This document shows positions 38,937 to 44,374 of a stretch of 64,000 nucleotides of DNA, piece by piece (position 1 is the first letter of the stretch; every line of letters starts with the position of its first letter). The position numbers were made by a program, and so were the translations under genes. This stretch comes from a virus. The notes beneath the pieces were generated by a model. That model had not been told where the DNA came from. It saw only the letters and a program-made list of their open reading frames with translations, and made no database searches. The DNA lies in the IMG/VR virus record IMGVR_UViG_3300043773_002546, positions 62,001-126,000 of that record; one strand, written 5' to 3'.

Positions 38937-39191
38937 GTGGCCAAGATGACGCTTGAACGGGCCAGCGAACTGGTGTCGGCGCTGCGGGAAATGTGCCCGC
39001 CGCCCGACACCAAGGCTCCCGAGCTGTTCGACTATTTCGTCGAGGCGCTGAACATCAGCGACGACAAGCTCGAGCAGTTCGCGGTGCTGTGCGGTTTCCA
39101 GGTTGTCACCAACGTCGAGCTGATGTTTGTGCCCTGGGAAGAGATGGGGAAGATGCTCGATTGTCCACCTGAAGAAGGGAGTCAGCAGTGA
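38937..39191 (+). CDS. Small hypothetical protein
   Basis: 84 residues from GTG 38937, eight bases behind AAGGAGG. Acidic, helical, soluble. A palindrome copy lies directly upstream of its ribosome site. Confidence 0.65.
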   Translation: MAKMTLERASELVSALREMCPPPDTKAPELFDYFVEALNISDDKLEQFAVLCGFQVVTNVELMFVPWEEMGKMLDCPPEEGSQQ

Positions 39192-39559
39192 CCAAGATCG
39201 TGATCAACACGTGTTTCGGCGGGTTTGGGCTCTCGCAGGAGGCGCAGGCCAAGCTGCACGCGCTGGGCTCTGAGTACGTCCGGGAGCTGACGCCCCTGGA
39301 GCGCGAGGAGTCGGTTTTTCATGACGACGACCAGTTCCTGCTGGCCTACGAGATTCCGCGCCATGACCCGCTGTTTGTGCAGGTGGTCGAGGAGTTGGGC
39401 TCAAGGGCCAACGGGAATTGCGCCAAGCTGGCTGTGGTCGAGATTCCGGGAACGCTCTACCGGATCAATGAGTACGACGGCCGGGAAGGAGTCGAGACGC
39501 CCGAGAAGCTCAACTGGATCGACGCCACGCAGGCGCCGGTGCCGGTAGACTGGGCGTAA
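39188..39559 (+). CDS. Conserved phage protein of unknown function
   Basis: 123 residues beginning with KIVINTCFGGFGLSQEA and containing RHDPLFVQVVEELG and VVEIPG-x-LYRINEYDG, a pattern I recognise from a widely shared phage protein of unknown role. GTG 39188 overlaps the previous stop. A tRNA gene follows after 8 bases. Confidence 0.75.
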   Translation: MTKIVINTCFGGFGLSQEAQAKLHALGSEYVRELTPLEREESVFHDDDQFLLAYEIPRHDPLFVQVVEELGSRANGNCAKLAVVEIPGTLYRINEYDGREGVETPEKLNWIDATQAPVPVDWA

Positions 39560-39567
39560 TGTTGTTA

Positions 39568-39639
39568 GGCCCCATCGTCTAATGGTTAGGACACCGCCCT
39601 TTCACGGCGGTAATCGGGGTTCGAATCTCCGTGGGGTCA
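39568..39639 (+). tRNA. tRNA-Glu (UUC)
   Basis: 72-base cloverleaf: acceptor GGCCCCA/TGGGGTC, anticodon stem CCGCC/GGCGG with loop CTTTCAC (anticodon TTC), T arm CGGGG TTCGAAT CTCCG. CCA not encoded. Confidence 0.93.
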
Positions 39640-39672
39640 CTGTCGTAATAACTTTCAATCGCAGGAAAACAC

Positions 39673-39975
39673 ATGACAGTACGTGAATTGATCGAGCAAT
39701 TGTCGTCGTTGGATCCTGACAGCGTTGTTTACGCCGCTGAACTTGTCCGCCACGAGCCGTATGACGACGAAGATTCTTTGTCGGCACATGGTTTTCGTTA
39801 TTCATACAACGCCAAAAATATTGTTTGTGTGCCCGGCAAGCAGGCTGCAATTATTGGGTGCCGTGCGCTTGTCGACCTTATGCCGTCGAGTGAAGAATTG
39901 GTGCAGCAGCAGGCATTTTTCGCCGCGCTTTCTGCTAATTATGCTGCAGAAAGCACACAAGCAGATCGGTATTGA
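39673..39975 (+). CDS. Small hypothetical protein before tmRNA
   Basis: 100 residues, soluble, with a C-terminal Gln/Ala-rich helix. Lies between tRNA-Glu and the tmRNA gene and ends 11 bases before the latter. No known domain; base composition is slightly more AT-rich than its neighbours. Confidence 0.65.
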   Translation: MTVRELIEQLSSLDPDSVVYAAELVRHEPYDDEDSLSAHGFRYSYNAKNIVCVPGKQAAIIGCRALVDLMPSSEELVQQQAFFAALSANYAAESTQADRY

Positions 39976-39986
39976 TTTAACCATAC

Positions 39987-40335
39987 GGGGGCGAAAAGGT
40001 ATCGACGGGATGAAGAAAGTTTGGACTGCATGCCGTGGTTGATCGGTTGGCCACGTTAAAAGCCGATTACGTTTCTAGCTGGCGCTTACGCTCCCGCTCT
40101 CGCTGCCTAGTTTCTAGGTTCGCGAGTGGGGCTGCATGGGCCTCATTGCCCAATCATGCCGTGTCGTTTCGTTAAACGACTGATCTCGCCCAGAGAGAAA
40201 GGGCACGATGGTGGTAGCCCACCTGACGCCGATAATCGGCTGGCTTTGCCTGTAGTGTGAGCAACAACAGGATACGCATGTAGACGTCCTTACCAGGCAC
40301 ATCTCCGGACCCGGGTTCGATTCCCGGCGCCTCCA
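39987..40335 (+). ncRNA. ssrA: Transfer-messenger RNA (tmRNA)
   Basis: About 349 bases, one-piece type. 5' end GGGGGCG pairs with 3' CGCCTCC (one G-T) followed by discriminator A; CCA is not encoded. The region TGCATGCCG followed by GGTTGGCCACGTTAAAAGCCG matches the canonical 5' tmRNA core, and GCATGTAG plus GGGTTCGATTCCC match the 3' half and T arm. The tag frame ends GCT TAC GCT CCC GCT CTC GCT GCC TAG, giving YAPALAA; aligning the TAG triplet before the resume codon with E. coli (TAGTC-GCA) places resume at GGC, tag GAYAPALAA. Would rescue stalled ribosomes and tag proteins for ClpXP-type proteases. Confidence 0.92.
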
Positions 40336-40406
40336 TTTGTTAGTTAGTTGGTTGGCTGGCTTGCTGGTTGGGTAATTAGTTTTTCTTTTCCTCGAAGGAG
40401 CGACAT

Positions 40407-40859
40407 ATGGCTCGTGGTTATTGGCTCGATCGTGTCGGCGGGCTCATGTACGGCGACAAGATGTACGGTGACGCCGAGTTGACCAAGGCGCAGTACGACG
40501 CCCTGTTCGCGTATGCGCCCGAGCATCGCGCGCAGGCGTTGGCGCTGCTCGCGGTCCAGGCCGAGTACGAGGAGGTTTCCAAGGCGAACACGGAAGCTGT
40601 GATCGCCGAGGTGCTGGCGCACGACGTTGCCGACAAGGCCGCGTTCGCTGCCCAGGCTGTGTTCGACGAGCACCAGGCGGCCCTCAAGGAGAACCCCGAT
40701 ACGCCCATTCCGGCGATCGAGGAAGCTCTGAAGGCTGCCCAGGAGGCCCGTGCAGCGGCCGAGGCTGCCACCCAGGTGACCGCGCCGCTGCAGGAGAAGA
40801 TGGCAGCTCTGCGGACGCAGCTGGAGGCCATGCCGCCCCAGCGGTTCATCGCGGCCTAG
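40407..40859 (+). CDS. Ala-rich coiled-coil protein, probably well expressed
   Basis: 150 residues. N-terminal 30 residues globular (ARGYWLDRVGGLMYGDKMYG), then a long Ala/Glu/Gln helix likely to form a coiled coil. Monocistronic setting: U-rich leader (TTTTTCTTTTCC), GAAGGAG ribosome site, and a very strong terminator 25 bases after the stop. Function unknown; the setting suggests high, independent expression. Confidence 0.75.
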   Translation: MARGYWLDRVGGLMYGDKMYGDAELTKAQYDALFAYAPEHRAQALALLAVQAEYEEVSKANTEAVIAEVLAHDVADKAAFAAQAVFDEHQAALKENPDTPIPAIEEALKAAQEARAAAEAATQVTAPLQEKMAALRTQLEAMPPQRFIAA

Positions 40860-43549: not shown

Positions 43550-44374
43550 ATGAACAAGCTTATTTCTTGGTTAGTGACTTTTTTTCTCTTTCTTTTTGCC
43601 AGTCTGGCCGCCGCAGGCACACGCGACCCCAACACGCCCGACGCCCAGTATCTCGAGTTTGGTAAGAAGTTTCCGTTTGTCGTGCGCATCTGCACGCACA
43701 GTGAGCACACCGACGCGCAGGGCAATAAATACACCGAGCACGCCTGCGCCAGCGCGGTTGTGATCCGGCCGCACTGGGTACTGACCGCGGCGCATGTCTT
43801 CTCAGACGCTGAACGAGCCACAGTCAGGACCGAAGACGGCACGAAGTTTCCCCTGGTCAAACTGATTCCGCACAAAGACTACAAGCCGGAAAGCGTCGGC
43901 TGGCACGATATCGCGCTGGGCCGGACTGCGGCGCCCATTGAGCTGGAGTTCTATCCCAAGCTCTACACGAAGACCGACGAGCTGAATCAGGCCTGCACGT
44001 TTGCGGGCTGGGGCCTGGCAGGGACGTTTCATACCGGCGGCACGCACAGCGATAACAAGCGCCGGGCGGGACACAACAAGATCGATAGTCTGTCAGACGC
44101 GGTGCTATTATGCACGCCTAGCCGGGGCGCGGAGCGCTTTCCGCTGGAGTTTATGATTACGCCGGGAGACTCTGGCGGCGGCATGTTTCTGGGCAACGAG
44201 CTAGCGGGCATTAACTCGTTTCTTTTGGCCAGCGACGGCAAGCCAAACGGGACCTACACGGACGAAACGGCGTTTACGCGTGTGAGTCTATACGCGGATT
44301 GGGTAGAATCTCAGATCGAGAAGTACGAACTCGCGCTTCAAGCCCGCGCCACCGAGGGCGCACAGCTCGAGTAG
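43550..44374 (+). CDS. Secreted trypsin-like serine protease
   Basis: 274 residues. Signal peptide of about 22 residues (LISWLVTFFLFLFASLAAAG). LTAAHV near residue 77-82 gives the catalytic His, WHDIALGR near 116-123 the Asp, and PGDSGGGMF near 204-212 the Ser, so the S1 triad is complete. Exported to the periplasm or beyond. A phage-encoded secreted S1 protease is unusual; envelope damage, host-surface processing or defence against predators are possibilities. Start ATG 43550 behind GGGAGG. Confidence 0.85.
   Translation: MNKLISWLVTFFLFLFASLAAAGTRDPNTPDAQYLEFGKKFPFVVRICTHSEHTDAQGNKYTEHACASAVVIRPHWVLTAAHVFSDAERATVRTEDGTKFPLVKLIPHKDYKPESVGWHDIALGRTAAPIELEFYPKLYTKTDELNQACTFAGWGLAGTFHTGGTHSDNKRRAGHNKIDSLSDAVLLCTPSRGAERFPLEFMITPGDSGGGMFLGNELAGINSFLLASDGKPNGTYTDETAFTRVSLYADWVESQIEKYELALQARATEGAQLE

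Follow-up and report, generated by a model that had tools for sequence, protein, structure and literature searches.

The 64,000-nucleotide stretch of DNA analysed here (the window), which spans bases 62001–126000 of a 197,309-base virus record of 59% G+C, contains a tmRNA gene that we consider likely to be a phage gene, probably functional, and derived from Planctomycetota ssrA. The window encodes a DNA polymerase, a DnaB-like helicase and a UvsX-like recombinase, and the rest of the record encodes RNA polymerase beta-type subunits, a tail sheath and baseplate proteins. These phage genes, together with a tmRNA in every one of the group's ten records above 190 kb, place the gene in the phage genome rather than in host DNA flanking a prophage. 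A reading made earlier from the letters of the window (the sequence-only reading) had described a complete one-piece phage tmRNA, and ARAGORN, the RF00023 covariance model and the gene content of the record all bear this description out.

The features of the gene and its surroundings are listed in Table 1. ARAGORN makes a single tmRNA call, with the same ends as in the sequence-only reading and with the tag at 95–124 of the gene, and cmscan matches RF00023 at 39987–40338, over the whole model (positions 1–374), with 113 bits (E 2.3e-43) compared to the gathering score of 47 used as threshold. The earlier identification had been staked beforehand on this score and on the conservation of the tag frame in relatives; the frame is kept in 13/13, and neither result counts against it. 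The fold has a z-score of -3.08 relative to dinucleotide shuffles. The G3-U acceptor pair is an alanine identity element (PMC3985003), and A86 of E. coli tmRNA is needed for activity (PMC2481249). The discriminator A is at 40335 and is followed by TTT, so that CCA is not encoded. Two forms of the tag had been offered, GAYAPALAA and AGAYAPALAA, and both are right, the first being the encoded tag and the second the tag after addition of the alanine charged on the tmRNA.

Table 1. Coordinates of the tmRNA gene, its parts and its neighbours (window positions), and of two divergent alleles in related phages (contig positions)
Feature	Position	Strand	Basis or remark
tmRNA (ssrA-like) gene, one-piece, CCA not encoded	39987–40335	+	ARAGORN, RF00023, covariation (n=13)
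Acceptor stem, 5′ strand GGGGGCG; partner 40328–40334; third pair G-U	39987–39993	+	RF00023 alignment
Pseudoknot PK1	40034–40068	+	both stems show compensatory changes among relatives
PK1 stem 1	40034–40038 with 40051–40055		
PK1 stem 2	40041–40046 with 40063–40068		
A at -4 of resume codon, equivalent to E. coli A86	40077	+	conserved 13/13
Tag reading frame GAYAPALAA*, resume codon GGC, stop TAG	40081–40110	+	ARAGORN, alignment of 13 phages
Helix H5 (end of tag frame and sequence after it)	40099–40126	+	pairing across relatives
Pseudoknot PK2, 3′ of tag	40127–40159	+	covariation of both stems
T arm CCGGG TTCGATT CCCGG	40311–40327	+	100% paired, compensatory changes
tRNA-Glu (TTC), ends 346 bases 5′ of tmRNA	39568–39640	+	ARAGORN and cmscan
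ORF of 100 aa between tRNA-Glu and tmRNA	39673–39975	+	family search, no match
ORF of 150 aa downstream of tmRNA	40407–40859	+	family search, no match
Divergent tmRNA allele, phage G008	L326:9755–10102		flanks 87–89% like those of G023
Divergent tmRNA allele, phage G023	L327:9464–9807		flanks 87–89% like those of G008

The structure was examined in an alignment of 13 phage-group sequences, on which 60 pairs were drawn by hand in the acceptor, T stem, H2, PK1, H5 and PK2, and several patterns support it. First, 89.3% of the positions over these pairs are standard pairs, and pairing falls to 37–46% when the partners are slid. Secondly, both-sided changes are seen in 22 pairs, compared to a shuffled mean of 9.3, and 0/500 shuffles reach 22. 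Thirdly, the T arm is fully paired and the G3-U acceptor pair is present in 12/12 distinct sequences. The PK1 stems are 100% and 98.6% paired and the PK2 stems 84.8% and 73.1%, with covariation in both of the latter; the outer stem of H5 is 86.7% paired and its inner stem just 53.8%. Because the end of the tag also forms helix H5, its near-constant codons are not creditable to the peptide alone.

The relatives are 28 viral loci found via the DNA polymerase (56–74% identity in the best segment). Together with the window's own record these make 29, all linear metagenomic contigs without completeness estimates; 13 of them score above the RF00023 cut-off, among which are 10/10 of those longer than 190 kb, the window's record included. 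A tRNA-Glu and a tRNA-Leu lie within 1.5 kb upstream in 10 of the 12 tmRNA-bearing relatives; the upstream side of G002 has tRNA-Glu and tRNA-Asp, and in G011 a tRNA-Lys and a tRNA-Thr lie on the opposite side. The 13 tags, as read from the alignment, are of eight kinds with 8, 9 or 11 residues, all ending in LAA or IAA: GAYAPALAA, GAFAPALAA, GAHAPALAA, GTFNSVPALAA and GNTLAIAA (two each), and GTFNSAPALAA, GALNSAPALAA and GAPLALAA (one each). Every one has the resume codon GGC, A at -4, T at -5 and an in-frame stop, and the differences in length are whole codons. The tags beginning ADYVSS that ARAGORN reports for G008 and G020 were set aside as frame mis-calls, the alignment reading GAFAPALAA. 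Among other viral contigs, permuted tmRNA calls with the tags ANDSQFALAA and ANDEQFALAA were noted at L017:2707-3095 and L018:6593-7078, on contigs that share the protein family of the window's 39188–39559, and a call with the eight-residue tag GEAMPLAA at L149:10192-10508.

Two lines of similarity point to the Planctomycetota. When a degenerate pattern based on the phage tRNA-Glu was scanned over genome contigs of 84,980 species, it matched five contigs, only in Planctomycetota and all in one GTDB family; the depositors' names for the five assemblies conflict, and at L214 and L216 genes of the NuoD and ferrochelatase types adjoin the matched tRNA. The ssrA genes of this same family (G042-G046, G446 and kin) are up to 79% identical over their full length to the tmRNA of phage G011; the next best ssrA outside the family is 67% identical (392 genomes of the phylum), the others among the matches listed being partial. 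In a maximum-likelihood tree the phages and the family are joined with 98/100 support and the phage tmRNAs form a single clade (91/99); a single acquisition by these phages is probable, and is favoured rather than proven because the bootstrap is not fully settled and the bacterial family is itself not resolved as a clade. The bacterial ssrA that was checked lies among chromosomal genes (IspD, TyrRS, citrate synthase, PRPP synthetase, Pth and SSB), and from this setting and the wide presence of ssrA in the family we infer that the transfer was from bacterium to phage. The phage tmRNA is thus a probable derivative of the ssrA of one Planctomycetota family, and the similarities of tRNA-Glu and tmRNA suggest that these phages of about 200 kb probably infect Planctomycetota; the source of a captured gene need not be the present host.

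The DNA polymerase matches in the bacterial family (31–37% identical over part of the protein), taken as bacterial genes, give no sign of a binned phage. Partial second tmRNA matches in some of the bacterial genomes comprise five stretches, none of which gives a complete call and four of which reach or nearly reach the end of their contig. In one genome of the family (G486), two different contigs each have a full tmRNA match (L324:1040-1393 and L301), reflecting either a duplication or a mixed bin.

Rescue of ribosomes on damaged mRNA, as proposed in the sequence-only reading, is the natural reading of such a gene, and we infer rescue and tagging from its anatomy and the established mechanism of trans-translation (PMC8012679). 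The tmRNA would be transcribed, host enzymes would trim it and add the CCA, and charging with alanine and binding of host SmpB would follow. Host SmpB is the likely partner because a search for SmpB gave nothing in the 13 phage records (linear contigs, so that the absence is not absolute), whereas 4/4 bacterial genomes tested have it. The charged tmRNA would enter ribosomes that have stalled in infected cells on broken mRNA or mRNA lacking a stop, add A-GAYAPALAA and free the ribosome, leaving the unfinished protein to a host protease that recognizes its LAA terminus. The phage would probably gain a greater capacity for ribosome rescue at a time when mRNA is being degraded, and the occurrence of the gene in all ten long records suggests that these phages have a constant need of rescue.

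Among the phages, the tree of the DNA polymerase conflicts with that of the tmRNA. For example, the polymerases of G008 and G023 are almost identical, yet the tmRNAs of the two phages are only 71.5% identical and encode different tags. Identity of their DNA is 96% over a 6.2 kb stretch with its end about 3.6 kb 5′ of the tmRNA, 89% immediately 5′ of the gene and 87% in the first stretch that matches 3′ of it, and other parts of the region differ as much as the tmRNA does. This pattern fits replacement of the tmRNA gene between related phages. It could be extended to a tmRNA that, after its capture from a Planctomycetota host, became an exchangeable cassette, with phage backbones trading alleles that differ in their tags because a given tag or form of the RNA suits the SmpB, adaptor or protease of a given host, although we regard this extension as unlikely.

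The tag was described earlier as a very short one of the ALAA type. The LAA end stands, but the shortness is normal, the nearest bacterial ssrA genes also having tags of nine codons. All 30 called tags of the Planctomycetota family are AEAQFSLAA (21), AEARFSLAA (5) or AEAQFALAA (4), and wider Planctomycetota tags have nine residues in 23/30 by ARAGORN count, in a sample of the loci with the highest tmRNA scores rather than a random one. The phage tag is most likely short because it descends from a short-tag lineage; a nine-codon tag is ordinary for the probable source clade, and this ancestry corrects the tempting over-reading of it as a phage invention.

A related proposal, that the phage tmRNA competes with that of the host and that its tag body escapes an adaptor or shifts the protease, thereby redirecting degradation, draws on the difference between the phage body GAYAP and its variants (GGC in 13/13) and the bacterial AEA[QR]F[SA] (30/30), while the phages keep an LAA or IAA end, and on the failure of a degenerate tag pattern with its upstream motif to match any bacterial genome. 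However, Gly-initial tags and tags of 8 to 9 residues also occur in Planctomycetota chromosomes, and accelerated tag evolution, sought as a sign of adaptation, is not seen when phage and wider Planctomycetota tmRNAs are compared at equal divergence outside the tag. Mean tag identities for the phages and the wider Planctomycetota, respectively, are 0.49 and 0.49 at 60% identity of the rest of the RNA, 0.44 and 0.56 at 65%, 0.64 and 0.59 at 70%, and 0.72 and 0.71 at 75%, some of these bins being small. With the LAA end kept and the tag diverging no faster than in bacteria, the earlier suggestion that the phage redirects proteolysis finds no support, and we judge such rewriting quite improbable.

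Ribosome rescue with tagging is also to be weighed against a role as a decoy, in which the RNA would bind host SmpB or stalled ribosomes without tagging and so damp host trans-translation, as the TLD-only sequence in phage DS6A has been proposed to do (PMC4131195). Phage records without SmpB are in keeping with an RNA that draws on the host pool, but the whole mRNA-like part is present, the tag frame, the A at -4 and the stop, all needless for a decoy, are kept in 13 phages, and tag length changes among them in-frame; a decoy is accordingly a very doubtful explanation. That the gene is a functionless captured ssrA, or the remnant of an integration into ssrA, is scarcely credible and is disfavoured by conservation, for although ssrA is a known integration site and ssrA fragments in prophages have been discussed (PMC9004378), the gene is complete, has compensatory changes in many helices, and is present in 10/10 records above 190 kb with its tag frame kept.

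Phage tmRNAs are known from mycobacteriophages such as Bxz1 and Wildcat and from Bacillus phage G (PMC4131195), and from 402 of 18,146 phage genomes (PMC9004378). Like these named examples, the present tmRNA is a complete gene in a large phage genome, although its bacterial source and tag differ from theirs. Both tmRNA and SmpB are reported among the genes of huge phages (PMC7162821), whereas SmpB was not found in the 13 records of this group. In phage Melnitz and its relatives the tmRNA phylogeny likewise points to a bacterial source, but the Melnitz tmRNA is a permuted two-piece molecule with a glutamine riboswitch (PMC9004378), while that of the window is one-piece and cmscan found no riboswitch family at gathering score within the window. 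The Planctomycetota family ssrA shares with the phage gene its one-piece architecture, tag codons from position 95, a nine-codon LAA tag, the G3-U pair and, in the copies looked at, the lack of an encoded CCA; it differs in its resume codon (GCC rather than GGC) and tag body (AEAQFS rather than GAYAP), and in the window's phage subgroup the region after the tag has strongly diverged from it. The titles and abstract openings examined describe no tmRNA in a phage of Planctomycetes. The window tmRNA is a new lineage within the already known phage tmRNAs; what is new is its probable Planctomycetota source, probably by one acquisition, and the finding that phages with similar backbones carry differing tmRNA alleles. 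The phages with a tmRNA of their own gain an uncultured lineage, with genomes of about 200 kb and Planctomycetota as the probable hosts.

The 197-kb virus record is, as judged from sequence comparison, without a close isolated relative. Its DNA polymerase is at best about 24% identical to those of isolated phages among the matches listed, a candidate structural protein has no match in the phage collection, and neither the tmRNA nor the 24 kb around it has a DNA match there. The tail sheath gives weak matches only, to Vibrio and Salmonella phages, and two of these phage records have no tmRNA above the RF00023 cut-off. The downstream 150-aa ORF has no relatives in the viral contig collection, and a simple sigma-70-type scan gave no promoter near the tmRNA. 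Proteins matching phage RNA polymerase beta-subunit families are encoded at L006:17501-19900 and L007:1504-3405 (+), and from matches to such subunits we note that the phage may transcribe part of its own genome. A trypsin-family protein (PF00089) is encoded at 43550–44374, about 3 kb 3′ of the tmRNA.
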